Source: Chitinophaga pinensis (lineage in GTDB: Bacteria > Bacteroidota > Bacteroidia > 2-12-FULL-35-15). From it: a DNA stretch of 35,520 bases. Location: the NCBI GenBank assembly GCA_945885475.1, contig CAMCYR010000033.1, positions 1-35,520 of the forward strand, given 5' to 3'. Shown here in pieces: positions 1 through 13,642 of the stretch; the stretch's first letter is position 1, and each line of letters begins with the position of its first letter. The notes below the pieces were generated by a model. That model was not told where the DNA came from. It made no database searches and worked only from the letters and a program-made list of their open reading frames with translations. A program made the translations under genes and the position numbers.

Positions 1-331
1 TGATTGTAATTGTTAGCATAATTTGTACAACTTGAGGACTTACTTGATTAAGTGAAATAATTATTTCTTCATCATCCCCTTCTCCAACTCCAGTTCTGTT
101 ATCTCCTCCATAGCGAACAGCCCCATCGCCACTATTAGGATTATTATAAAAAACAAAAAATTCGTCTGAAGGTATTTTTCCATTTTCTCCTAACATAAAT
201 GCAGATGCATCTGCATCTGGAGAGTGGCCATTTAAAATTGTTTCATCCCAACTTAAGCCAACTTTTACATGATTTAAGCTAGGTATTGATTTGCTTAAAT
301 TTATTGGTTTTTTTTTCTCTAAGTTTATCAT
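1..331 (-). CDS. TerD-family stress protein, 3' end outside the window
   Basis: Reading leftward from the ATG at 331, the frame stays open to the window edge, giving 110 N-terminal residues of a protein that normally has about 190. The pattern is that of the TerD domain. It has an N-terminal NLSKSIPSLNHVKVGLSW segment, then DADASAFML, then FFVFYNNP, then GDNRTGVGEGDDEEI. TerD domains bind calcium through the conserved acidic residues of the DADAS and GDNRTG..GDDE segments, and these are intact here. The gene starts 19 bp after the stop of the upstream DUF805 gene and is the last gene of the minus-strand operon visible in this window. TerD-family proteins occur in tellurite-resistance and general stress clusters; that this one confers tellurite resistance cannot be inferred. 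The family call is firm. Assignment to TerD rather than TerE or TerZ is not possible. Confidence 0.9.
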   Translation of the reverse strand, partial: MINLEKKKPINLSKSIPSLNHVKVGLSWDETILNGHSPDADASAFMLGENGKIPSDEFFVFYNNPNSGDGAVRYGGDNRTGVGEGDDEEIIISLNQVSPQVVQIMLTITI

Positions 332-350
332 ATTTTTTATTTTTATAGCA

Positions 351-911
351 TTATTTTGGCGAAACACCATATTCGTTTTGAACTTTATCGCCTTCTGCAA
401 AAATCATCCAAAATACATAAAATGGTATTATTTGGTACCATCCTGAGTTACCTCTGTCATGACATCTTTTAGCTCCTTGAGCCCATAAAAACCAAAGTAA
501 TGGTATATAAGCTAATGCAAATACGACTGATGTTTGCACTATTCCAATAATGATTGAATAAGCTATTATATAAATAATAAAACTTAATCCGTATTCTGTT
601 CTTCTTATTCTTCCATCGAATGAAAAGGCAGAAGAAAACATTTTTTTCGGAATATTTTTAGCGCTTTCTGATTGATAGTTTGTTGCATGTTTTACTTCTT
701 TTTCCACAACCTTCACTATTGGGGCAGGAAAAAACTTTTTAAGCTCGGGTGCCTCTGATGCTTTTATCCATTCAATCCCTTCTCTCCATACTAATGTATC
801 TCTATCAATTTTAGATATTAATGTAGCCACATCATAAGGCCCATATTGAACTTCATCAATTAAACAATAGTATTCATGAGACACTGATGTTTTATTTGTA
901 TTTATAGCCAT
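351..911 (-). CDS. GYF_2 plus DUF805 membrane protein
   Basis: The protein has 186 residues. Residues about 14-60 form a GYF_2-type domain: aromatic YYC, the YGPY motif at 23-26, W42, W48, then a hydrophobic helix. Residues about 92-186 match the DUF805 membrane domain, with the opening FSFDGRIRRTEYG, hydrophobic helices, the WAQGAKRCHDRGNSGWY signature loop and a final NEYGVSP tail. The GYF_2 domain would lie on the cytoplasmic side. GYF domains in general bind proline-rich peptides, and a gene with a long polyproline linker lies two genes upstream in the same operon, so a docking role is a reasonable inference. The gene sits 4 bp downstream of another GYF_2 gene and 19 bp upstream of the TerD-family gene. 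Domain calls are good; function is unknown. Confidence 0.85.
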   Translation of the reverse strand: MAINTNKTSVSHEYYCLIDEVQYGPYDVATLISKIDRDTLVWREGIEWIKASEAPELKKFFPAPIVKVVEKEVKHATNYQSESAKNIPKKMFSSAFSFDGRIRRTEYGLSFIIYIIAYSIIIGIVQTSVVFALAYIPLLWFLWAQGAKRCHDRGNSGWYQIIPFYVFWMIFAEGDKVQNEYGVSPK

Positions 912-915
912 TTAT

Positions 916-2166
916 TTATTGTTTAGTAATTTTAAGATCTTTTATTTCTAATTCTTTGTATGATATTATTTTATTTTGGTCATCAAAAATAAATTCAACT
1001 TTTACTCTACAAGATTGAAATTTCTTTTTAGATGTTCTATAACATGAAAAATTTATCCATGCCTGTCTTGAATTTACTCCTGAAATAATTACGCGCGAAC
1101 CTATTAAATTAACTTTTGAATCTACAAAATCTGAATTGGAATTAATGATTTCGTTTATTTCGATTGGATTTGTATTTTTTCTATTAATAAACTGATTAAC
1201 GTTTTCGCCATAAAAATTATTAGCATCCATCGTTTTGTTATTCATTGCGTCAAAGTAATTCATTATAATACTAAGGTAAATCGATTCTTCAATTACTGAA
1301 TCAAATATAGCATTTTTTTCAATTATTTGTAGATAATTGAGGCTATTTCGGAATGAATAAAAGGTGGTGTCTTTTTCTACATTATTTAATATTGTTGGAT
1401 TAAAATTTAATTCATTTAAAAGTTCACTTTTAACAAGTTCGTAATTCCCCTGAATAGCATGAATTGAAATAAGTTTATAATCTAATTCTGATTTTGGCTG
1501 ATAATCCATACTGGTAGCTAATTGAAGGCATTGTTCACTTCTTGTAAAATCATTACTTTTTAAATAAGCATTTGATAAAAGAAAATAGGTTTGCGCTTGA
1601 GGAGCATTTTTTAACGACTCTTTATACTTGGAAATTGCTTCAGTAAAATTTTGATTTAACATTGCTGCATTTGCCTCATTTAATAAATTAGGCGCAATAT
1701 TTTTTTGCTCATCTGTAGGTTTATAATTACGAACAACTTCAAAATCAAAGATTTCAAAATCAGTTAATGTTTTAGCTTCTAACTTAACGGAATCAATAGA
1801 TGCTGTAATTTCCGGAACAATAGCAGTATTTTGATTATAAAAATAGTAACCTACTCCAGCTAAAACTAATAGAATTATAAAAAACCAAATCCCGCCATTA
1901 TTACCTTTTTTCTGCTCAACTATAGGTTTGGTTATATTAGCTTGTTTTTGCGGATTTTGTTTCTCAATTATTTTTTCGACCTTAAAGTAATTTTTCAATT
2001 CAGCAATTTCTTTTGCTTCAGTCCAATCAATGCCCTCTCTATAAACACGCGTATTTGCTTTAATTTTACTTAGCAGCACAGACAAAGAAAATGGACCGTA
2101 AGTATTACCTTTTTCTTCATAGAAATACTGTTTTTCTATTGCACTTTTATCTAAATTAAGAGCCAT
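916..2166 (-). CDS. GYF_2 domain, single transmembrane helix, TPR-like protein
   Basis: The protein has 416 residues. The N-terminus (about 14-60) is a GYF_2 domain with YGPF at 23-26, Y42 and W48, aligned residue for residue with the GYF_2 domain of the next gene. A charged linker follows, then one transmembrane helix at about 91-110. Residues about 160-260 contain helical repeats that look like TPRs, with motifs such as ANAAMLNQNFTEAISKYKES. The C-terminal 150 residues (from about 265) are not recognised and end in a probable beta-rich part. Topology is predicted as GYF_2 in the cytoplasm and TPR and tail in the periplasm. It lies 55 bp after the polyproline protein gene and 4 bp before the DUF805 gene, in a single operon. 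It could act as a transmembrane adaptor, but no activity can be assigned. Confidence 0.82.
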   Translation of the reverse strand: MALNLDKSAIEKQYFYEEKGNTYGPFSLSVLLSKIKANTRVYREGIDWTEAKEIAELKNYFKVEKIIEKQNPQKQANITKPIVEQKKGNNGGIWFFIILLVLAGVGYYFYNQNTAIVPEITASIDSVKLEAKTLTDFEIFDFEVVRNYKPTDEQKNIAPNLLNEANAAMLNQNFTEAISKYKESLKNAPQAQTYFLLSNAYLKSNDFTRSEQCLQLATSMDYQPKSELDYKLISIHAIQGNYELVKSELLNELNFNPTILNNVEKDTTFYSFRNSLNYLQIIEKNAIFDSVIEESIYLSIIMNYFDAMNNKTMDANNFYGENVNQFINRKNTNPIEINEIINSNSDFVDSKVNLIGSRVIISGVNSRQAWINFSCYRTSKKKFQSCRVKVEFIFDDQNKIISYKELEIKDLKITKQ

Positions 2167-2221
2167 TTATTTAAATTGTTTTTAAAGTATTTTAAAGTAT
2201 ATTTCTATAATCAACAATTAT

Positions 2222-3904
2222 CTATTTCTTTATATTTTTTAAATAATTTTCAATCCATTTTTTTGCTTCAATTAACCCAATATTTCGAGTATCCTTGAGG
2301 TGTTTTACCGCAGCCAATATTTGTCCAGTAGAAATAAGCCTTTCTAATTCTGGATTATTACCCAATAACAAACTATTGTTGTTTTTGGGAGGTGGTGGAG
2401 GTAAAACCTTTTTAGGCGGTGGTGGCGGTGGTATTGGCGCCTTTACCTTTGGAGGCATTGGAGGCGGAGCCGTTACCTTTGGAGGTATTGGAGGCGGAGC
2501 CGTTACCTTTGGAGGCATTGGAGGAGTTGCTGATACCTTTGGAGGCATTGGAGGCGGAGCTGATACCTTTGGGGGCATTGTAGGAGGAGCCGTTACCTTT
2601 GGGGGCATTGGAGGAGTTGCTGATACCTTTGGAGGCATTGGAGGTGGAGCCGTTACCTTTGGAGGAATTGGAGATTTAACTGCTGGAGGAATTGATTTTG
2701 TTGGAGGCGGTGCTAAAGGCTTTTGTTGTGTTGAAGGGGAAGCTATTTGCTTTACATTAATTGGTGGAGTAATTTGAACTGATGGAGCCAATGATGTTGG
2801 TTCCTTTCCTCTTAAATGAGAAATATTTAATTGATTCTCTAAATAATCGAAAGTAAAAAGTAAGAAGTTTCCAGAAAAGTCATTTCCCTCAGTTAATATA
2901 CTAGAATATGTGGTTTTAAAAAAATCAATGAAAATATCTTGATTTATTATTTCACCATTTAAGAAAATCTTGTGTCCCGTTGCCTGGTTAGCGTTTCTAA
3001 AATTATCAAATTCCCCTTGTATAAAATTTAAGGATGCTCTATTATTTAATCGATTAGCAACTGCATCTTTATGAAAATCTAAAATTAAAGGATAAACACC
3101 TATATCATAATTTTTAATCTTGTAATAAACCCACCCTTCATTGAGTAAACTCAAAATTGCAGGACCATCTGAAGCTATTTTTTTTTTAATTTCATTGACA
3201 GGCAAAAGACTCCCTTTTCTGACTGCTATTTCGGCAACATACTCCAAAATAGTATCTAATCTAGGATCATTACCTCTTCCGATTAGAGTCTTTTTGTTAA
3301 TTGTAAGCGTAGGGTTTTGAGCAACTAAATTAATTTTCAAATCTCCTAAAGCTGAATTAATACTTAAAAAAGATTCTTTAGAATTTATACTGCCGTTTTT
3401 CTCATAATAAGCCCTATATAATTCCCAATAATCAAAAGTTACTAATGTGGAAGGATTAAAACCAATAACTTCAATCAAATCTTTATTCACTCTATGCCTA
3501 TGTTGCTCATCAATAAATGAATCGTAAACAATTATTGTTTTACAGGTATTTAAAAACGATTCCTGTGTAAAACCGCTATAGTTATTTCTAATTATATCAG
3601 GTAAAATATTTTCTTTAATTGCATAAGATAACAGACTACTAAATGGATGAGAAGCATTAAATCGATTATATTTTAATTGTGGATTTAAAATATTAATCCA
3701 ATAGTCGCCAAATGCATTTTCTAAATTTGAATCAAATTGCATTTTCGCATTTTGATCCATAGAAATTTGATCTCCACTAACTAAAAAGTACAAAGGCGCT
3801 CTATTATCCAATCCACAATTGATAGGCACTAGCCTTCTGCTTTGATCTATAGTCCAAAACTCAACCGTGTATTCTTTAAAATATATTAATAATGGAGCTT
3901 GCAT
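2222..3904 (-). CDS. Polyproline-linker protein with L7/L12-like C-terminal domain
   Basis: The start is ATG at 3904; a TTG lies one codon upstream. The product has about 560 residues. Residues 1 to about 370 are a globular domain I do not recognise. Its opening LLIYFKEYTVEFWTI and a later INSALGDLKINLVAQ are faintly reminiscent of actin-fold strands that have lost their DxG residues, which is speculative. Residues about 375-505 are proline-rich, with eight related decapeptides of the form PPxMPPKVxA followed by runs of six and five prolines. The last 45 residues, with ILAAVKHLKDTRNIGLIEAK, resemble the C-terminal domain of ribosomal protein L7/L12, a fold often used outside the ribosome. The gene begins 6 bp after the stop of the giant actin-like gene and precedes two GYF_2 genes. 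It looks like a scaffold linking operon partners. Translation through the proline runs would be expected to need EF-P. Confidence 0.82.
   Translation of the reverse strand: MQAPLLIYFKEYTVEFWTIDQSRRLVPINCGLDNRAPLYFLVSGDQISMDQNAKMQFDSNLENAFGDYWINILNPQLKYNRFNASHPFSSLLSYAIKENILPDIIRNNYSGFTQESFLNTCKTIIVYDSFIDEQHRHRVNKDLIEVIGFNPSTLVTFDYWELYRAYYEKNGSINSKESFLSINSALGDLKINLVAQNPTLTINKKTLIGRGNDPRLDTILEYVAEIAVRKGSLLPVNEIKKKIASDGPAILSLLNEGWVYYKIKNYDIGVYPLILDFHKDAVANRLNNRASLNFIQGEFDNFRNANQATGHKIFLNGEIINQDIFIDFFKTTYSSILTEGNDFSGNFLLFTFDYLENQLNISHLRGKEPTSLAPSVQITPPINVKQIASPSTQQKPLAPPPTKSIPPAVKSPIPPKVTAPPPMPPKVSATPPMPPKVTAPPTMPPKVSAPPPMPPKVSATPPMPPKVTAPPPIPPKVTAPPPMPPKVKAPIPPPPPPKKVLPPPPPKNNNSLLLGNNPELERLISTGQILAAVKHLKDTRNIGLIEAKKWIENYLKNIKK
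2441..2672. repeat. 30-bp tandem repeats encoding PPxMPPKVxA
   Basis: Seven full 30-bp units run from 2451 to 2660, with partial units at 2441-2450 and 2661-2672. On the plus strand each unit begins GGAGG(C/T)ATTG and ends ACCTTT with at most a few changes. Variant units recur in an interleaved order, for example the same GAGGAGTTGCTGATACC version at 2521 and 2611. This suggests expansion by slippage or unequal recombination. Because 30 bp is ten codons, changes in copy number would keep the frame and only change linker length. Confidence 0.95.
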
Positions 3905-3910
3905 CAATTT

Positions 3911-6900
3911 TTATCCCTTCTGAATTTTTGGCATTAGCGTGTTTTTTAGAAACGCTTGACCTTGTAAAATAATAAGCGGAGCAACAAAATCAAATTCTTT
4001 TGCCCTAAGCGCTTGAATATACCCATCATCCGTTTTTAATTCATTCACTATATTCAATGAGTTTATACCTCTCACCAATTCATCGCCATCCATGTCAAAA
4101 TCTAAATTTTGACTAGCGAACATATAGAAAACTTCAATAAAAGATCTAAATCTAGGATAATTATCTTGACCTGCCTTAGGTGGAAGAAGTTCAGAGCCAA
4201 GTCTTTGAATTAATGATGGATTAATATCCATTAAAGCACTTAATGCAACCGGTTCTTTACCTGCAATTTTTAGCATATAGCCATCTTCACCAATAATTTC
4301 TGATAGTTTTACATTCGCTTCTGCAATACCCCTCTGTTTGCCGTCTGCAGATTTTATTGCCAATCCTTTTGCAACTTCAGTTTTAACATTATCATCTTTT
4401 GGATTATTAGAAGTTATTGGGTTGGGATTAAAATTCCCCATACGCCATGTATTACCACCATTAAAATGCTCATTAGCGTCAGGACCATAACCAGCACTAA
4501 AGCAGGAAATATAATAATTCCAAGCATTTTGACTATCTAAGGCTTTAAACCAATCGAATATTCTAGCCCCCTTTCCGTAAAAATTCAAGGTTAGGTCATA
4601 AAGTGGATCTGCAAATAATTCTGAATTATTTTCGGTAGTTGACCTTAATTTTCGAGCAACCATACCACCATAAAATATTGACAAACCGGTAAGATACAAA
4701 TTGAGCCACATTATCGGCTTACAATTTGCAGCAATTTTATTATAAAATAAATTCAACTCTTCCTGGCTATTTAACCTGTCTACAATTTGGTTGTAATAAA
4801 AGGGAACAGTATTGTCATTCATGTTTTTAATACCATGAATTCTCCATCCTTTTTGATCTGCAAAATTTATTAATACATCCTTAAAACCAGGTGCTTTTTT
4901 AGTAGCATCCGCTATCATTCCTGCAGCAATTTTGATTGAACTTTGTTTTATTAAAGAAGGAGTTGAACTTCCATTAACATTAACTGAGGTAATTGCCAAA
5001 ATATCAGTAGTTGAACCTCCCACATCAAACCCTAAAGAAAAATGCCCAGCACTCAGTCCACTTAAAGCTGATGCATGATTACTTACAGCCATTGCTTCCG
5101 TACAAGCTTTAAAATCGGCAGAAAACTTGACCTGAAAAGATGAGTTAGCAGATCCATTGGAATCTAATTCGGTAGGTAATTCAAGTGGTAACATTTTAAC
5201 AGCACTACTCAATCCTGCATTTCCCATACCGCCGGCCATTGGATTCATTCCTCCGCCCATTGGGTTCATACCCATTCCAGTTGCCTGTCCGCCGGTAGAA
5301 GAATTTCCTGATAACACACCTTGCTTAGTGGCAATAGTGTCTCTCGACCCTTGAGCAATTGATAATTTAAATGAATCGGGATTTTCTTTAGTTGCTAATG
5401 GATTACAGTCCCCAATTTCACTCCAAATCTTTGTGCTATAATCTTTTATGGCAGATGCTGACATAGAGGATGGATAAGCCCAAACCAATTCGTTTGGATA
5501 ATAAGGCTTTGTAGTGTTCATATACAATTCAGCATATGTCTGTAACATTATTGCTTTTAAAAAAGCTTGTTTATGACTTTCTTCTTTTGTATCATTGTTC
5601 CACTTCATGCTGTGCACCATCATTACCTTTTGATCTCCTATTTTTGGAACTTTTAAAATATGGCGATTTGGAGTACTGTCTTCAATTGCAATATTATTTT
5701 CATAACACATAAAACCACCTTTGCCGACTTCACTTAAGGATAAATTAATATTACCATCTGTAATAACCCTTGTCTCATCATGGATAGTTAAGGTGCTTTT
5801 AATTTTATTAGACATTATTTCATCATTTTGAAAAAATAACATTTCAAAAGATGCAGCAGCTGATGACTTATTTGATTCGTTTTGGTCATTATCGGAACTA
5901 AACATCGCAACCCTTCGGTTTTTAAACTCCAACAATTCAGAGCTAGTGGTTACTTCGTCCCAATAAGCAATACAGGTATTGTTACTTCCAAAGTCTATTC
6001 CAACACGAGTTGGACTAAGTTGTTTGTTGGTATTAATTTCATTCTTAATATTGTTTGAAGAAGCATCTCCATCAAATTTCAAAAATACGAAACCAGCAGA
6101 TTTTCCTGAATGCTTTAATTCCACACCCTTAAATGGTTTAGCAGATTCATAAATCTCGTACTTATAACTACTAAGTGTTTTTATATTACCAACAATAAGT
6201 TTAGCTAGATCTTTATTTTGTACAATCCCATTTTCAGCTACTTTTAAAAATCCGAACTCTGTTTCAGGCAATCCCTCTTTTCTACCTGATTTAATAGCAT
6301 GCTCTTTATCAAATAAAGTAAAATGAGTATCAGTATCACCTAATATTGGAAAAGCCTGCCAACCAGAAGGGTTATTATGCGGCATTTCAGAAAACATATA
6401 ATACTTATTCCAAAATTTACTTACAAAATTTGGCCACACAATTAATTGTTCAGAACCTACCGGCTCAGCATTACACTTGTATTTTAAGCCTGTTAATTTT
6501 GTAATTTGTGAACCATCTGTTTTCCTGACATCTAAGGTTACATTAAGAACATTAGCATTCTGGTCATAAACGCCTGTTAAACTTGTCGATTGAGAACCAA
6601 CTTTTCCAGAGATTAAGTCGGTCATATTACGTTGAAATATTTTTAATCCTAACTCACTTAATGGAATAGTAAAAAACCTATTCCCATTTCCTGTTTGAAC
6701 TTTAAACAAATGAACAGGACATTGAGAAATACTTTCTTCATCTCCCTCTATGCGAGCAAGGACAGTTGTTTTATCATCTAACAATAAATCCGCAACTTTA
6801 AATTCTGTATACTCTGAACCAACAACAATATCAGAATCTTTAAAAATATTACCTTCGAAATCTGCGTAAAATGCATTAGAAACATTAAATAAAGATTTGA

Positions 6901-7801
6901 ATGGTTCTAATTTAAAAAAGTCGACACTAGGAGAAACTTCTTCATTAATGATAATATTATTTTCAGTGGCATAGGATCTCATTTCGGCTATCCAAATACC
7001 AAGTAATTTACCTATTGACTGATCAATAGAATCTGGTAACAAGTGCTTACTTGCACTGTATTTAGAATAAAAAGAACTTAATTTTTTTGCTAATTTATCA
7101 ACATAAACAACCAATTCACTTAATTCATTCTGCGTAACTTTTCCTTTTGCTTTTAATGGATCAGTAAATTTACCGGTCGTTTCGCCAATAAACACATAGT
7201 TACGTTCGGTTGCAGCAAATTCATAACCCGGTGATGTAAAAACCAATGACTCTGGAGATGTAGCACCTACAACTTTATTATTAAAGTAAATAATATCTAT
7301 AAATGGTCTGAGCGTTCTCCCTTCAACTCCTATTTCATTCTGGTCTTCCCACAATTGTTTTTTTCCAAACAACACATTTCCAAATGCACCTTTTGGTTCA
7401 TATATATTTTCGGCATTCTCCATAGTCCCATCACCGGTAGAGTAATTTAGCTTAACCCTTTTCACTTTAAATGAAGCTGAGCCCGCCAATACAAAACTTG
7501 CAATAAAACCTTTCCACTCATCTAAGAGCATTCCGTAAAAAGCATTTAATCCAGTACCCTGTCCATCAGCTGCAGTTGACTTCATTGCATAAGCAAACAT
7601 ACTCGATCTTGCATAGGCACTAGGCAAACCTGAAACAGCTTGTGATATATTTGGCTTTTTTCCTCCTTCCCCTGAAGAAAAAGTCGCATCAATACTTGAT
7701 GTAAATTCCTTGATGAAGTCACCCATGCCATGCCATTTGTATAATGGACCAGAGGCATTTTTATTCGATTTAATTAATACAGATTTATTTTCTACTGCCA
7801 T
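3911..7801 (-). CDS. Giant actin/Hsp70-superfamily ATPase-like protein
   Basis: The protein has 1296 residues. A phosphate-1 motif of the actin/Hsp70 fold lies at about 599-614 (VGIDFGSNNTCIAYW). A strand and turn comparable to the Hsp70 AVxTVPA segment are at 771-780 (ELVWAYPSSM). The phosphate-2 motif is at 924-937 (GFDVGGSTTDILAI). Both DxG aspartates are kept, so ATP binding is likely. Between them is an insertion with a Met/Gly-rich stretch at about 841-862. The first 590 residues are a large extension I do not recognise, ending just before the ATPase core. Total length is about twice that of DnaK and there is no Hsp70 substrate-binding domain. It lies 30 bp after the tubulin-like gene and 6 bp before the polyproline protein gene. 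The proteobacterial SrfB family, also large and possibly actin-like, should be compared, but I am not sure of any relationship. Confidence 0.85.
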   Translation of the reverse strand: MAVENKSVLIKSNKNASGPLYKWHGMGDFIKEFTSSIDATFSSGEGGKKPNISQAVSGLPSAYARSSMFAYAMKSTAADGQGTGLNAFYGMLLDEWKGFIASFVLAGSASFKVKRVKLNYSTGDGTMENAENIYEPKGAFGNVLFGKKQLWEDQNEIGVEGRTLRPFIDIIYFNNKVVGATSPESLVFTSPGYEFAATERNYVFIGETTGKFTDPLKAKGKVTQNELSELVVYVDKLAKKLSSFYSKYSASKHLLPDSIDQSIGKLLGIWIAEMRSYATENNIIINEEVSPSVDFFKLEPFKSLFNVSNAFYADFEGNIFKDSDIVVGSEYTEFKVADLLLDDKTTVLARIEGDEESISQCPVHLFKVQTGNGNRFFTIPLSELGLKIFQRNMTDLISGKVGSQSTSLTGVYDQNANVLNVTLDVRKTDGSQITKLTGLKYKCNAEPVGSEQLIVWPNFVSKFWNKYYMFSEMPHNNPSGWQAFPILGDTDTHFTLFDKEHAIKSGRKEGLPETEFGFLKVAENGIVQNKDLAKLIVGNIKTLSSYKYEIYESAKPFKGVELKHSGKSAGFVFLKFDGDASSNNIKNEINTNKQLSPTRVGIDFGSNNTCIAYWDEVTTSSELLEFKNRRVAMFSSDNDQNESNKSSAAASFEMLFFQNDEIMSNKIKSTLTIHDETRVITDGNINLSLSEVGKGGFMCYENNIAIEDSTPNRHILKVPKIGDQKVMMVHSMKWNNDTKEESHKQAFLKAIMLQTYAELYMNTTKPYYPNELVWAYPSSMSASAIKDYSTKIWSEIGDCNPLATKENPDSFKLSIAQGSRDTIATKQGVLSGNSSTGGQATGMGMNPMGGGMNPMAGGMGNAGLSSAVKMLPLELPTELDSNGSANSSFQVKFSADFKACTEAMAVSNHASALSGLSAGHFSLGFDVGGSTTDILAITSVNVNGSSTPSLIKQSSIKIAAGMIADATKKAPGFKDVLINFADQKGWRIHGIKNMNDNTVPFYYNQIVDRLNSQEELNLFYNKIAANCKPIMWLNLYLTGLSIFYGGMVARKLRSTTENNSELFADPLYDLTLNFYGKGARIFDWFKALDSQNAWNYYISCFSAGYGPDANEHFNGGNTWRMGNFNPNPITSNNPKDDNVKTEVAKGLAIKSADGKQRGIAEANVKLSEIIGEDGYMLKIAGKEPVALSALMDINPSLIQRLGSELLPPKAGQDNYPRFRSFIEVFYMFASQNLDFDMDGDELVRGINSLNIVNELKTDDGYIQALRAKEFDFVAPLIILQGQAFLKNTLMPKIQKG

Positions 7802-7831
7802 AATATTTATTTTTTTAAAATAATGTCATTG

Positions 7832-9487
7832 TTAAAATGTCTCGATTTGTTGTTTTTTACTGATCGTCTTAAATAGCTGAGCTAATAATTTCATCTTAGC
7901 TCCTTCTATATTTTGAGAATCCTCAATAATTGTATTCTCATTTTTTATAAATTCATCTACAAAATCATTAAAAGATTCAGCCGCATCTTTCGGAGAGGGT
8001 TTCCCAAACCTAGATTTGCCCATACCCCATTGACTTTTTTCGTCCTCTAGCAAAACTCCTGGATTAATTTTTTGTATTACACTGAAGTCCTTATCAAAGG
8101 AACTATTTGGAAGTAAAAATTTACCAGTAAAGGAATTTCGAATTTGGTAAAGCCAACCCTCAGAAATCTGTCCAGATTCCATATTAAATAAAAATGCTTT
8201 GAAATATGCGTTAATTTGTTTTTTGTCTAAATCAGAAAAAGTATTTTCAAATTCCATATACTTCATTAGCTTCATCCTATTTAACCAACCCGTTAAACCT
8301 TCTTTATCTTTAACAATTCCATCTAAATTCACTAAAGTGAATAGTGCAATTGCATAAAACCCTGTCAGTCTATTCTTAAATATCTTCTCAGAGTCTAAAA
8401 AATCCTTAAACTCAAACTGAAAGGTTCCCTCGTCAAATTTTGCAGTTCTGAATAAATATTCTACTTTCTTTTCGGGAAAATCTTCTCTTGTAAAAAAATC
8501 ATATGCTGCAAATGCACACATCAATTCAGTAACATGGCATGGGTTCAATTGCTTTTCCCCACCTGTTACTGTTTCTGTTTCCGTTTTTCCTTTAGAGAAA
8601 TCAGCTTTAGTGTTAACTGGCCAACCCACATTGTATAAATACTTGTAAGTCCGCTCTACTGTTGGATCATTTTCATAAAACTGCAATGCAGCTTGGCTAT
8701 TTAAAGTAAAATAATTTGCATCGGCAACAACACCCTCTCCTGGCTTTTTCTTTTGAGCTTCATTGGGTGATGTAAAAGAAAAATACTCAGTTAACAAGGA
8801 AGCACCAAACTTCGCCTCAATAGGTAGTGATTTCGCAATGGCATAAGCATCTTTAAAAGCAACTGGAATAACAGGAATAGAAGATGCTCCAGTTCCTCCA
8901 AAAATAGAACCCAAAATAAATACACGTGCATCCTTACCAGCTTTTACAATGCTTTCAATATATTGCATAAGTGCTTTTTCTTGAGGGGCAGCGGTGTTCT
9001 TTTTAACCTTTATTGCCGAATCCAAAATAGCGTGATACATTAGCTGAGAGCCCAAATGTGTTTGAGCCCTATAGCCATGTGCTAAATTAAAAGTTTGTGC
9101 AGGCTCCTCTAAAAAAAGGGAGGCCAAATCAATATTTTCTTGATTGTTTTCGTCTTTTATTGCAATTTTAGAGAGTTTTTGATAAGTAACATCACCGGAA
9201 TAAGATGGCCAATATTTAGTTAAATTAAGTTTAGCAGAAAAAAAAGTATTATTCGATGGCTTTCCACCAAAATCTGCAGGCGCAGCACCTGCAGGAGTTT
9301 TAACGGCATTATATAAATCAATTAAATCCCAAACTCTTTTTAGGTTCCCATTTGCTTGATCGGTATCTAAAGTAAGAATGTTTATTTCTTTACTATCAAA
9401 CATTCCAATAGCACTTAAGTGCACAAAGGACTCTAAACATCGCATACCAGTTCCACCGATTGCAATTACAAATAATTTATCTGCCAT
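7832..9487 (-). CDS. Tubulin/FtsZ-superfamily protein (Tubulin_2-like)
   Basis: The protein has 551 residues. The N-terminal strand runs into a nucleotide-binding loop at 11-15 (IAIGGTGMRCLE). Next come DTDQANGNL at 41-49, the position of the T2-type loop, and ILGSIFGGTGASSIP at 191-205, which matches the glycine-rich tubulin signature GGTGTG/GGTGAG of FtsZ and tubulin. The order and spacing fit the GTPase half of the superfamily. The remaining 300 residues do not look like FtsZ and carry no FtsZ C-terminal peptide. It is therefore not the division protein. It resembles the divergent bacterial tubulin-like families annotated as Tubulin_2. It lies 30 bp upstream of the actin-like gene and 35 bp downstream of a small membrane protein, with no sign of an independent promoter. 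GTP binding is likely; polymerisation cannot be judged. Confidence 0.85.
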   Translation of the reverse strand: MADKLFVIAIGGTGMRCLESFVHLSAIGMFDSKEINILTLDTDQANGNLKRVWDLIDLYNAVKTPAGAAPADFGGKPSNNTFFSAKLNLTKYWPSYSGDVTYQKLSKIAIKDENNQENIDLASLFLEEPAQTFNLAHGYRAQTHLGSQLMYHAILDSAIKVKKNTAAPQEKALMQYIESIVKAGKDARVFILGSIFGGTGASSIPVIPVAFKDAYAIAKSLPIEAKFGASLLTEYFSFTSPNEAQKKKPGEGVVADANYFTLNSQAALQFYENDPTVERTYKYLYNVGWPVNTKADFSKGKTETETVTGGEKQLNPCHVTELMCAFAAYDFFTREDFPEKKVEYLFRTAKFDEGTFQFEFKDFLDSEKIFKNRLTGFYAIALFTLVNLDGIVKDKEGLTGWLNRMKLMKYMEFENTFSDLDKKQINAYFKAFLFNMESGQISEGWLYQIRNSFTGKFLLPNSSFDKDFSVIQKINPGVLLEDEKSQWGMGKSRFGKPSPKDAAESFNDFVDEFIKNENTIIEDSQNIEGAKMKLLAQLFKTISKKQQIETF

Positions 9488-9522
9488 AATAATTTTTTAG
9501 TTAACTTAATGTAAATTTTATA

Positions 9523-9849
9523 TTAAAACCAATTCCCCAATTTTCCGTGCTTAAACATTTTGCTTAATACAAAGCCTAAGATGATATAGACTACAAATCC
9601 TACTATGGTAGCAATTGGTAAGGAATCATTCCAAGATTCTAGTTCGCTTCTATTACTCGGTGCCATTACAAATGCAGCTATTGAATAAAATATAATGGGG
9701 TTTAAAACAGCAAAAATCCAAAACCACATTTTTCGTTTTCCTGGATCTTTTGGGTTTGCGCCACCTTCGAATTTTATGGCGTTAGAAATTAATGCCGCTA
9801 GTAACAATACTACAGCTGCGAAAATGATTGATAAAATGTACGTGCTCAT
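9523..9849 (-). CDS. Small three-helix membrane protein
   Basis: The protein has 108 residues and three hydrophobic segments, at about 3-24, 41-62 and 79-100. A polar loop (FEGGANPKDPGKRK) lies between the first two, and a serine- and acid-rich loop lies between the last two. The basic C-terminus KMFKHGKLGNWF is probably cytoplasmic or interfacial. No family is recognised. It sits 27 bp after the large lipoprotein gene and 35 bp before the tubulin-like gene. It is a candidate inner-membrane anchor between the periplasmic or outer-membrane lipoproteins and the cytoplasmic NTPases, by position only. Confidence 0.75.
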   Translation of the reverse strand: MSTYILSIIFAAVVLLLAALISNAIKFEGGANPKDPGKRKMWFWIFAVLNPIIFYSIAAFVMAPSNRSELESWNDSLPIATIVGFVVYIILGFVLSKMFKHGKLGNWF

Positions 9850-9876
9850 TTTGTTTGTTTTTATTTGGTTGTTTAA

Positions 9877-11433
9877 TTATTTACTTTGTTCTAATTTTAA
9901 GTAGTAGGAATATAAAATTCCTTTCGGTTTTACTGATTGCAAGGTGTTTCTTATAGATTCGTAAAAACTGTTATTAACACCATTCGAAGCACTTATTATA
10001 GATTTCCATTTGAATGCGTCTAGTTGGCCAGAATAGTTTTCATCTGTTGTCTCCACAACATAATCTATCCTCAAAATTAGTTGATTCTTAGTATTAAACT
10101 TACCTTCAAAATTTTTATGAAAGGTTGTTATAAGCTCTACCTTTTTTGGTGTTTTCGTTAAATGGTCTGAAAAAATAGATACATCAAAGTCAAATATTTC
10201 AGACATCAGGTCTCCTGGTGTATATTTGTAAATATATTGATTTTTTAGTTTATTTGAATTTTTCTCATAGCATTCTGTAATAATCGGATTCGCAGCATCC
10301 GATTTACTCCATATTTTGTTTTTACCCTCGTCATTTTCAAGAACTGGAACATTTTTTTTAGCTTCTGATGATTGAATGTAGTTTGTGTAATCTATTGTAA
10401 CATCAGTTACTTGAACTTTAACATTTTTGAGAATAAAAGAAGCACTATTTGATGCATCTAAAAATAAATTCTTTGAGAATCTGCCTTTTCCTTTAAAATA
10501 AAAATCATAAAGGTCGTTTAAGCTTTGTCCAAATTCAAATGCCTCGAAAGGTCTTCCGTTATTTAAAAAACCGTTTTGATAAAAAAGGAGAGCACCTTCC
10601 TTATCACCAATTTCCAATGCTGATTTATTTTCAACATCTGTATTTAAAGTAAGGCCAGTTTTTTCTTTTCCTCCATAGTAATTTGAAACAGAATAAGGAT
10701 TTGGGTTAATATCAAATCTATTCAAGCCAACTAAATCCGATCTTCCTTCTATCGCTTTATTGAATTTACTGAGTAAACTATTTTCATTTACTTCGCCATA
10801 ATTAAAAAGCACAAAATAAAGGTTTTTTTCGCCCGACAAATTTGATTTATTATTTGTTTCGATATATTTTGAATAATAGATTGTGATTGAATTTCCCGCT
10901 TCTACCCATTTAGTAAAGTAATCTTTTGCATAAGCATATTTCTGTTCTTTTCCATCAGGAGTATATTCTTCAAAATCAGTTATTAACAAGGCATCATTGG
11001 ATGAACCAGCAATTTTTTTTAGAGACTCTTCGATTGGAGCCATTATATCAACATAACTTGCTTCTGAGATAACTTTGTTATAAATATCTCTATCGTTAGC
11101 GTAAATTAATTTACCAACCCCATTATGATTTTTGCCTAAACCAAACCAATCAATTGCTGACCCTACCATTTTTTGCGAAATGTAGTCAACCACTTTTTTA
11201 TTGGTTTCACTTGAATAAGCCTGAACCAAGCCATCAGAAAAATCGACATAAACCGCTTGATTACCATTCCGAACTTTAGACTGTTCACCTATTGCTGCCT
11301 CGTGGTAATTCGAAATATTGTCTTGATAGACGGAAAGAGGGTTGTCAAAGGCAGTATCCTTCTTATTATTATTACAACTTGAAAACATTGTAATTGCAAT
11401 AACTGCTGCTGAGAATAAGATTTTTTTATTCAT
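9877..11433 (-). CDS. Large lipoprotein with possible vWA-like region
   Basis: The protein has 518 residues. The signal peptide ends in the lipobox MFSSC (Cys at about 20), so it should be lipid-anchored outside the cytoplasm. A strand AVYVDFSDGLVQAY at about 60-73 is followed by helices and later by NDALLITDFEEYTPDG at about 146-161. This order recalls a von Willebrand A fold, where a first DxSxS and a later TD build the metal site. Here only D-x-S and the later Asp are visible, so the metal site may be incomplete. The C-terminal half has alternating strands and is not recognised. The start codon overlaps the end of a 39-codon ORF by 8 bp, which suggests translational coupling. The next gene, encoding a three-helix membrane protein, follows after 27 bp. 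The lipoprotein call is firm; vWA is a structural guess. Confidence 0.78.
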   Translation of the reverse strand: MNKKILFSAAVIAITMFSSCNNNKKDTAFDNPLSVYQDNISNYHEAAIGEQSKVRNGNQAVYVDFSDGLVQAYSSETNKKVVDYISQKMVGSAIDWFGLGKNHNGVGKLIYANDRDIYNKVISEASYVDIMAPIEESLKKIAGSSNDALLITDFEEYTPDGKEQKYAYAKDYFTKWVEAGNSITIYYSKYIETNNKSNLSGEKNLYFVLFNYGEVNENSLLSKFNKAIEGRSDLVGLNRFDINPNPYSVSNYYGGKEKTGLTLNTDVENKSALEIGDKEGALLFYQNGFLNNGRPFEAFEFGQSLNDLYDFYFKGKGRFSKNLFLDASNSASFILKNVKVQVTDVTIDYTNYIQSSEAKKNVPVLENDEGKNKIWSKSDAANPIITECYEKNSNKLKNQYIYKYTPGDLMSEIFDFDVSIFSDHLTKTPKKVELITTFHKNFEGKFNTKNQLILRIDYVVETTDENYSGQLDAFKWKSIISASNGVNNSFYESIRNTLQSVKPKGILYSYYLKLEQSK

Positions 11434-11545
11434 TTTCGTTTGTTTTATTGTTAGTATCCGATTGTATTCCTTCTATAAACCCTTCCATCTGATGCCCTAA
11501 GTCTTTTACAGATTCCTGAAAATCATTGATCCCTTTGTTTTTCAT
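11426..11545 (-). CDS. 39-residue ORF resembling the upstream lipoprotein's C-terminus
   Basis: The ATG at 11545 opens a frame of 39 codons ending in TAA at 11426-11428. The peptide starts MKNKGINDFQESVKDLGHQM and is predicted to be one charged amphipathic helix with an Asn-rich tail. It lies 14 bp after the stop of the small lipoprotein and its last codons overlap the start of the large lipoprotein by 8 bp, so it fills the only gap between them. Aligned without gaps to the last 31 residues of the small lipoprotein, it shares GIN.F, L.HQ, FI and SD at the same spacing, 11 identities in 27 positions. It has no signal peptide and would stay in the cytoplasm. It may be a real small protein or a leader that couples translation. 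Confidence 0.6.
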   Translation of the reverse strand: MKNKGINDFQESVKDLGHQMEGFIEGIQSDTNNKTNENE

Positions 11546-11559
11546 TTTTTATAATTTAG

Positions 11560-11931
11560 TTATTTAGATGTAGTAGAATCAGAAGTCAATTCTTTAATAA
11601 ACGAATCAGCCTGATGAAGCAGACCATTAATACCCGAATTAAATTGATTAATCCCTGCTTTTATCTTTAAAGCTTGGTATTTGCCTATTAATTCATTAAC
11701 ACGAGCAGATTCTTGAGGGGTAAGCTTCGATTCCCATTTTTGGTAATCTCGATTCTGAAAATGAACAAAGGTGGTATCAGCATTAACCCATGCCTTTTCA
11801 TCATAGCCTTTATAATTTTCAGAAGTTCTTGTTACAAAAGAATCAAAGTTTGAAATGTAAGAATCCTTACTTTCAAAACTGCATGAAACAGTCAAAGTAA
11901 TAATCAAAAAAAACTGGAATAGCCTGCACAT
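11560..11931 (-). CDS. Small lipoprotein (possibly DUF6565-like)
   Basis: The protein has 123 residues. The signal peptide runs MCRLFQFFLIITLTVSC with a lipobox Cys at 17. The mature part is helical, with a central segment KWESKLTPQESARVNELIGKY typical of small Bacteroidota lipoproteins that I associate, from memory and unverified, with DUF6565. It ends in an amphipathic helix GINQFNSGINGLLHQADSFI. It is the first gene of the long minus-strand operon: no gene lies between it and the terminator of the PRTase gene. The start ATG is immediately preceded by three 9-bp repeats, so no conventional ribosome binding site is present. A role in the periplasm with the large lipoprotein is inferred from position only. 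Confidence 0.75.
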   Translation of the reverse strand: MCRLFQFFLIITLTVSCSFESKDSYISNFDSFVTRTSENYKGYDEKAWVNADTTFVHFQNRDYQKWESKLTPQESARVNELIGKYQALKIKAGINQFNSGINGLLHQADSFIKELTSDSTTSK

Positions 11932-11958
11932 AGTTGGAGTAGTTGGAGTAGTTGGAGT
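11932..11958. repeat. Three exact 9-bp direct repeats abutting the start codon
   Basis: AGTTGGAGT occurs three times end to end at 11932, 11941 and 11950, directly upstream of the small lipoprotein ATG (minus strand, read as ACTCCAACT repeats). The unit is in frame with the gene, so a start further upstream would add Thr-Pro-Thr repeats; I see no good start there. Confidence 0.9.
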
Positions 11959-12068
11959 ATGACAATAGAAAATAAAATAATAATAAGCGAATGTATGAAA
12001 ATTTTCTAATGATTTACTAATAAATGAAAAAAAGATCGATTTTTTACTCTACAAAACGATAAAAGAAT

Positions 12069-12122
12069 AAAAAAAAGACCCTTTCTTTGTAAAACAGAGC
12101 TGTATGCGTATTGCAAAGAAAG
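12069..12122 (-). terminator. Rho-independent terminator of the HAD-PRTase operon
   Basis: On the minus strand the PRTase stop codon is followed at once by CTTTCTTTG (12122-12114), a 24-nt loop, the complementary CAAAGAAAG (12089-12081), and then GGTC and eight T residues (12076-12069). The 9-bp stem is perfect. The long loop is unusual but the stem plus T run is convincing. It separates the HAD-PRTase unit from the long lipoprotein-to-TerD operon. Confidence 0.75.
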
Positions 12123-12964: not shown

Positions 12965-13642
12965 TTATACTAAAATACCTTTAAATCCATTATTTATGCA
13001 ACCATTATAATCTGCAATGACACTATCACCAACATGCAAAATATCACACTTATGAACTTTTTTTTCGACAGAATTTTGCTTTTTGGCTAGTAAATTATCG
13101 AACATTTTTTTTTCAGGTTTTGCACAATTTTCTTCATCAGAAAACAACAGAAAATCAAAAAAATCCAACTTTTCTGCATTCCTTAGAACCTTCCTTATTG
13201 TTTTGCCTGGAATAAATGCAGTGTTACTAGTTATTGAAATAGATATCCCTGTTTTTTTTAAATCAGGTATTACTACAGTAAATAAATATTTCGAAAAAGT
13301 TGGTGGGTGCTTTACAAATAATTCTAAAGTTGTTTCAAACAATTCGGTTATTTCCTTTTTGCCCCTAATTCCAATAGTTTCACAAACCTCAGAAAACAAT
13401 TCATTTGATTGCGAAATTAATCCACCACTTTCTATTCTATAATTATAATTAGTTCCAATTGATTTGAGAGCATCGTTAACAATATCGATTGTTGTACTTT
13501 TTTTATTACTCAATAAAAGTGATCGTTCAATCTTAAAAGTTGAATTAGAAAATGCGAGCGTATTCCAAAAATCAAAAGAAACGTGTATGATTTTATTATC
13601 AAAACAAAATTTCCGTATATCATTATTACTAATTTGCGTCAT
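12965..13642 (-). CDS. HAD-superfamily hydrolase
   Basis: The protein has 225 residues. Motif I is HVSFDFWNTL at 20-29, with the nucleophile Asp at 24 but Trp at the +2 position where phosphatases usually have Asp. Motif II is ISITSNTAF, motif III is the Lys in CAKPEKKMF, and motif IV is HVGDSVIADYNG. The core is complete for a C1-type cap HAD. The loss of the +2 acid suggests altered chemistry or a very specific substrate, as in haloacid dehalogenases, which also lack it. It is the first gene of the minus-strand HAD-PRTase pair, with 4 bp between them, and the pair probably acts in one pathway. Upstream lies a 460-bp AT-rich gene-free region that must hold the promoter, but I find no clear box there. 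Confidence 0.82.
   Translation of the reverse strand: MTQISNNDIRKFCFDNKIIHVSFDFWNTLAFSNSTFKIERSLLLSNKKSTTIDIVNDALKSIGTNYNYRIESGGLISQSNELFSEVCETIGIRGKKEITELFETTLELFVKHPPTFSKYLFTVVIPDLKKTGISISITSNTAFIPGKTIRKVLRNAEKLDFFDFLLFSDEENCAKPEKKMFDNLLAKKQNSVEKKVHKCDILHVGDSVIADYNGCINNGFKGILV

Follow-up and report, generated by a model that had tools for sequence, protein, structure and literature searches.

A conserved operon of tubulin-family, Hsp70-like and TerD proteins in Bacteroidota with a suggested trans-envelope architecture

Makarova and Koonin (2010, PMC2875224) described operons in which the divergent tubulin FtsZl1 stands with vWA, GTPase, kinase and OmpA genes, and membrane remodelling was suggested there; a reviewer of that paper questioned how the cytoplasmic and periplasmic parts would meet. 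GTPase-centred conflict systems that include tubulin or HSP70 were described by Kaur et al. (2020, PMC7159879). Klebsiella TerD, in turn, is a Ca2+-binding protein, and ter operons have been implicated in phage and colicin resistance (works cited in PMC8123226). The present analysis concerns an operon at the start of a 35,520-nucleotide stretch of DNA, hereafter the window, which is one contig of a 3.06-Mb Bacteroidota genome, with base 1 falling within the TerD gene. The operon encodes a vWA-like lipoprotein (VWAL), a small membrane protein (TM3), a tubulin (TUB), a giant ASKHA protein (ACT) and an adaptor (SCAF), together with TerD; all coordinates given below for the window are on the minus strand. 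Provisionally, the system can be placed with the FtsZl1–vWA kind, with ter and GTPase-centred features added, and no earlier description of it was found.

The composition and the conservation of this system can be read directly from the compared genomes, as the order VWAL–TM3–TUB–ACT–SCAF recurs in most of 83 non-duplicate tubulin loci, gene families being assigned with family profiles built for the analysis. A genome-collection scan with the tubulin alignment gave at least 511 relatives, from which 80 loci, nearly all from Bacteroidota, were fetched, and a search with ACT across the class added four further genomes with the same neighbours. ACT lies near TUB in 76 of the 83 loci (some of the seven others are divergent or truncated), and the median gaps along the conserved order are 27, 18, 6 and 3 bp. 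Pairwise distances in the five families are correlated with each other (Mantel r 0.76–0.97, matched in none of 300 permutations); such values fit co-evolution and joint vertical descent alike, and therefore show that the genes travel as a unit, not that their products are in contact. A preliminary description, made from the window alone, had proposed a single unit, a proposal that would fall if the neighbours were not kept together elsewhere; it survived this check. With gene order kept over the 83 loci, ACT near TUB in 76 and the families diverging in parallel, chance clustering was ruled out. Conservation and domain assignments show a fixed, co-diverging core, predicted to comprise a vWA-like lipoprotein outside the inner membrane, TM3, a cytoplasmic TUB GTPase, an Hsp70-like ATPase and SCAF. 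TUB occurs in 13 of 396 genomes drawn evenly from the phylum, with ACT adjoining it in all six of those loci that were read. The operon set was also seen to recur in many gut and soil Bacteroidota.

Relatives of the core extend to a second phylum. With tblastn against plasmids, tubulins were detected in cyanobacteria, and two cyanobacterial plasmid loci (L099 and L100) carry a vWA-lipoprotein candidate, a small membrane protein, TUB and ACT. Profile matches are E = 4e-44 and 4e-46 for TUB and 3e-21 and 3e-24 for ACT; the lipoprotein and membrane-protein calls are based on position and motif, with no significant profile matches. In Gloeothece, the candidate lipoprotein has an intact-looking DGSGS and is encoded on the strand opposite to the rest of the locus. 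These findings would make the core either older than Bacteroidota or mobile between phyla. Apart from a Gloeothece protein called 'tubulin-like', the core genes of both loci are unannotated.

TUB (7832–9487) is a tubulin-superfamily protein of the Tubulin_2/FtsZl1-like type. The window protein matches Pfam Tubulin_2 (PF13809) with E = 0.0035 and 17.1 bits, under the cut-off of 27, and the same profile matches each of the six sequences in the first family alignment (E < 1, best 8.3e-7); across the family, matches to the Tubulin_2 and Tubulin profiles are weak yet consistent. The family profile also matches, with E = 4e-44, a cyanobacterial protein annotated as tubulin-like. All 44 sequences compared share the same T1 (GGTGMR) and T4 (FGGTGASSIP) loops. 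The earlier claim that a tubulin is a true member of the operon is supported. FtsZl1 itself, as presented in the text of PMC2875224, differs: it has the loop GGGTG(S/T)G and usually a long coiled coil, whereas the TUB loop is FGGTGAS (FGGTGASS in all 44 sequences) and a length of about 550 residues leaves little room for a long coiled coil with a helical C-terminal domain.

ACT (3911–7801) is a 1296-residue ASKHA protein, in which an N-terminal region of about 590 residues precedes an Hsp70-like ATPase domain. The motifs DFGSxN, DxGGSTxD and GKGxR are nearly invariant in 37 sequences. An AlphaFold model of a 1155-residue relative reached a mean predicted local distance difference test score (pLDDT) of 84.6, and all 50 listed Foldseek matches of this model in the PDB are Hsp70 structures, with E-values from 1.8e-9. 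Both the fold and the phosphate-1, phosphate-2 and adenosine motifs place ACT among the ASKHA proteins. It resembles the nucleotide-binding domain of Hsp70/DnaK in fold and ATP-binding motifs, but differs in the large N-terminal region in front and in that no substrate-binding domain was recognised, though some Foldseek alignments run beyond the nucleotide-binding domain; Pfam HSP70 gave no match to ACT. Since the nearest structures are those of Hsp70 and not of MreB, actin or FtsA, a filament-actin reading of the protein was ruled out. The idea that both cytoskeletal NTPase folds are joined in one unit could not be upheld either, because the second NTPase is nearest to Hsp70 chaperone ATPase domains.

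VWAL (9877–11433) is a 518-residue lipoprotein, recognised by its lipobox and predicted to be extracytoplasmic. Residues D64-x-S66 and D153/E155 (TDxE) are nearly invariant, and the AlphaFold model has a pLDDT of 89.4. Its highest-probability Foldseek matches in the PDB are mostly vWA or I domains (vWF A1, integrin I, Ku), with probabilities of 0.60–0.84 and E > 0.01. The metal-ion-dependent adhesion site (MIDAS), DxSxS...T...D, is incomplete: DxS and the later D are kept, with G or C as the third residue. VWAL is probably, with moderate confidence, a degenerate vWA domain, because DxS and TDxE are conserved and the cyanobacterial counterpart carries DGSGS. The preliminary description rightly counted two lipoproteins in the operon and overlooked that the larger one is probably the vWA partner tied to this tubulin family in 2010. 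The smaller one, a DUF6565 lipoprotein (LP65, 11560–11931; Pfam E = 1.8e-9), is also found 5' of VWAL in several relatives. TM3 (9523–9849), a small integral membrane protein, is conserved between VWAL and TUB in about 70 loci.

SCAF (2222–3907) is a putative adaptor or scaffold with a GxGxDPR motif, a polyproline linker (PPPMPPKV repeats) and a short L7/L12-like C-terminus, the last on a weak match (E = 0.21). A homologue follows directly 3' of ACT in about 59 loci. By eye, the SCAF N-terminus looks ASKHA-like, and in L032 (15550–18255) a SCAF homologue is fused to a full Hsp70 domain (E = 2e-87). Two GYF_2 proteins are encoded next in the window: one with a transmembrane helix and TPR (916–2166; N-terminal tag MALNLDK), and a DUF805 membrane protein (351–911; N-terminus MAINTNK), their GYF_2 matches having E-values of 4e-10 and 2e-6. 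Proline-rich sequences serve as ligands of GYF domains. SCAF and GYF_2 genes stand together in four loci, the window and three related ones, which hold four of the six most proline-rich SCAFs; as these loci are related, the match between GYF_2 and polyproline is suggestive only. GYF_2 is found in 23 of the 30 genomes searched, so that co-occurrence at the genome level says nothing on polyproline binding. The GYF_2 proteins are a lineage-restricted extra and not part of the core. Their N-termini in the window lineage (MALNLDK, MAISLTK, MGIDLEK) are of the TerD-like peptide kind and fail the strict tag motif described below.

TerD is represented in the window by its N-terminal part (2–331; Pfam E = 2.9e-33, profile positions 3–111 of 187), the contig end cutting the rest; the protein begins with MINLEKKKPINLSK. 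One or more TerD genes stand at the operon in 36 of the 83 loci, at position +3 or +4 and mostly just 3' of SCAF (directly so in about 33 loci, with a median gap of 26 bp), and four additional loci have a diverged TerD-like protein, which upholds TerD as a true member. In relatives, the gene after TerD encodes N-terminal repeats (FDLNKN...FDLSKG), one transmembrane helix and a C-terminal OmpA (E to 8e-20) or CW_7 (6e-12) domain. OmpA and CW_7 are peptidoglycan-binding domains. The repeats of this anchor resemble the first residues of TerD: a strict tag motif is present in 31 of the 35 genes that follow TerD (0.3 expected) and in 36 of 66 TerDs, compared with 4 of 510 genes of the background. 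Furthermore, the anchor tags covary with the TerD of their own locus, as in FNLNKG/FDLNKN, VTLKKK/VTLKRK and FSDADFDK/FTEADFDK, the VTLKRK type belonging to Prevotella/Porphyromonas relatives and the last pair to Phocaeicola sartorii. Among 23 dereplicated loci, TerD and anchor of the same locus score a similarity of 28.6 versus 22.9 for shuffled pairs, matched in none of 5000 permutations. By conservation and domain content, TerD with a tagged, predicted peptidoglycan-binding, single-helix anchor is the commonest module added to the core. Judging from sequence likeness, the N-terminal peptides may serve as tags by which these proteins dock on a single partner; alternatively, the likeness may stem from gene conversion or from a shared signal at the translation start. 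In five loci (L091, L078, L083, L086 and L090), diverged TerD or TerD-like proteins have an N-terminal peptide of their own, mirrored in the adjacent membrane anchor. OmpA-type membrane genes, possibly for a wall anchor, were also seen at two divergent tubulin/Hsp70-like loci (L126, 1117–1815, MotB_plug-like; L127, 11530–12198).

Additional ter-type genes surround this module. In the nearest relative (L118), the operon continues with TerD, TerD, anchor, HAD, PRTase_3, an OmpA/PD40 protein, a 77-residue protein and TerC; this explains the HAD hydrolase (12965–13642; REG-2/YjjG-like by NCBIfam HAD models) and the phosphoribosyltransferase PRTase_3 (PF15610, 12124–12960; Pfam E = 1.1e-49) of the window, the latter known from ter-type clusters. 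Homologues of the pair adjoin the operon in L119; in L120 and L121, they belong to classical ter clusters apart from it, and Pedobacter and Chitinophaga carry the pair in such separate clusters. The one in L121 (Chitinophaga filiformis, 2277–12095) holds several vWA (TerY-like) genes, three TerDs, HAD, PRTase_3 and TerC. In relatives, the operon often goes on with TerC (E to 8e-55) or a cation P-type ATPase. With TerD and PRTase_3 over cut-off in the window and TerC in the operons of relatives, the locus has the TerD domain and partner genes typical of ter systems. It is like ter clusters (tellurite, phage and colicin resistance) in its TerD, TerC and HAD–PRTase_3 genes and in the link to Ca2+; it differs in that neither TerB nor TelA was seen in the window and in that the ter parts are joined to a tubulin/Hsp70/vWA core.

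Other modules may take the place of TerD. A DO-GTPase (1e-7) with a weak GAP1-like gene occupies the TerD position in 7 of the 83 loci and is absent from the window and from TerD-type loci; kinase and/or PP2C genes occur in four loci. These swaps indicate a constant core with a variable input module. The DO-GTPase/GAP1 systems, as presented in the text of PMC7159879, likewise combine tubulin, HSP70, vWA and membrane parts. They differ in that most loci here have no DO-GTPase, in that their tubulin theme is limited to Firmicutes and Actinobacteria, whereas the loci here are mostly from Bacteroidota, and in that their description names TerD a single time, in a different context.

The FtsZl1–vWA–OmpA operons also unite a divergent tubulin, secreted or membrane vWA proteins, OmpA-domain proteins, kinases and GTPases, and Bacteroides and cyanobacteria are among the species listed in that source. 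The OmpA counterpart, the tagged anchor, is clear in relatives, and the vWA counterpart depends on a weak structural match. The main text of PMC2875224 makes no mention of an Hsp70-fold partner, TerD, covarying tags, HAD–PRTase_3 or GYF_2. No paper that unites TerD with actin-like and tubulin-like proteins turned up in a search of the open literature; TerD, tubulin and GYF meet only in the text of Kaur et al. (2020, PMC7159879), in separate contexts. The earlier statement that the set bears no catalogued name agrees, provisionally, with Pfam, NCBIfam, PADLOC and the open literature searched. The comparison with defence catalogues suggested at the time gave, in PADLOC, only ShosT, which the PRTase matches weakly.

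The favoured explanation, held tentatively, is one trans-envelope NTPase system, linked to Ca2+, which fixes the cytoplasmic tubulin and Hsp70-like proteins to the cell wall in envelope stress or defence. The trans-envelope architecture is strongly suggested, and association of the unit with the envelope, as first proposed, is supported. Ca2+ control, docking and the role in stress or defence are inferred. TUB and ACT may form a nucleotide-regulated assembly beneath the inner membrane, coupled via TM3 to VWAL. TerD, whose studied homologues bind Ca2+, and the anchor would attach to the same partner, either SCAF or ACT, through their near-identical N-terminal peptides, and the assembly would be pinned to the wall upon a change in Ca2+ or envelope state. 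TerC, the cation P-type ATPase and HAD–PRTase_3 might set or answer this signal, and in the window lineage, GYF_2 proteins might bind the polyproline linker of SCAF. The likely purpose would be to seal or reinforce the membrane–wall interface under chemical or phage stress. More speculatively still, the operon may represent a class of trans-envelope NTPase machines, with an ancient core of extracytoplasmic vWA protein, membrane protein, tubulin and Hsp70-type ATPase common to Bacteroidota and cyanobacteria, fixed to the wall by peptides copied between TerD and anchor and probably exchanged on a Ca2+-sensing partner.

Several observations weigh against this explanation. The vWA identity of VWAL depends on weak Foldseek E-values (best vWA match 0.06) and a partial MIDAS, and the Pfam vWA profile is absent from 45 of 45 members. 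A canonical T7 catalytic loop was not recognised in TUB by eye, and the Mantel correlations reflect shared descent as well. The window ends before any anchor or TerC; its genome assembly contains no second TerD, and the only TerC of that genome (C30) sits among unrelated genes. The TerD module is missing from many loci, and therefore Ca2+ sensing cannot be universal.

A rather unlikely alternative to the trans-envelope system is that the operon primarily serves biological conflict, anti-phage or anti-toxin, as in Kaur et al. (2020), in which the NTPases would act as a thresholding switch and the membrane components would serve as effectors. The seven loci with the DO-GTPase and GAP1-like pair, the kinase and PP2C variants, the patchy spread among the 396 phylum genomes, the cyanobacterial plasmid copies and the implication of ter operons in phage inhibition (in the text of PMC8123226) are all consistent with it. 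However, no toxin, nuclease or pore-forming effector lies among the annotated genes, no phage copies were found, PADLOC models match nothing beyond the weak ShosT hit, and the core co-diverges stably, with no fast-evolving effector pattern.

A true filament cytoskeleton for shape, motility, division or vesicle formation, with TUB and the ASKHA protein both polymerising, is improbable. Both superfamilies include polymer formers, and membrane remodelling was proposed for the related FtsZl1 operons (PMC2875224); yet the text of that same paper left FtsZl1 filament formation undecided, the ASKHA domain is closest to Hsp70, and the presence of TUB in few Bacteroidota argues against a general shape or division function. 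It is very improbable that a tubulin/vWA operon and a stress (ter) operon, unrelated to each other, adjoin by chance. The core without TerD in many loci and the separate ter clusters with HAD–PRTase_3 in Pedobacter and Chitinophaga would fit such a pair of units, but this is largely refuted by the placement of TerD directly after SCAF, which includes a locus from another class of the phylum (L122), and by the covariation of anchor tags with TerD.

As a trans-envelope system, the operon offers candidate membrane bridges, namely TM3 and the tagged anchor with its peptidoglycan-binding end. Divergent tubulins gain a near-constant Hsp70-fold partner, and TerD, long of obscure role, is tied to a defined gene set. 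The short covarying peptides are open to direct testing. Pedobacter, Chitinophaga and Phocaeicola are cultivable hosts of the system.

Regarding the extent of the operon, the ten minus-strand genes of the preliminary description were confirmed in identity, strand and order, and Pfam confirmed TerD, both GYF_2 proteins and DUF6565. The upstream limit at 11931 proved too short, as the overlooked HAD and PRTase_3 genes on the same strand extend the unit to 13642. By the open reading frame (ORF) list with Pfam and NCBIfam, the operon thus runs from 13642 to 2 in the order HAD (the first gene), PRTase_3, DUF6565 lipoprotein, a 39-residue ORF, VWAL, TM3, TUB, ACT, SCAF, two GYF_2 proteins and TerD. 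A promoter and terminator scan gave results no better than those of shuffled sequences. Gaps are mostly below 60 bp; the two widest are 192 bp, between PRTase_3 and DUF6565, and 126 bp, most of which the 39-residue ORF (11426–11545) occupies. Two gene overlaps had been reported, of which one stands, an 8-bp overlap of this ORF with the VWAL gene; that between TerD and GYF_2 vanishes, since the TerD N-terminal motif implies a start at its own ATG near 331. By eye, the 39-residue ORF resembles the C-terminus of the neighbouring DUF6565 lipoprotein, and is probably a degenerate repeat of it, like a decayed partial duplication.

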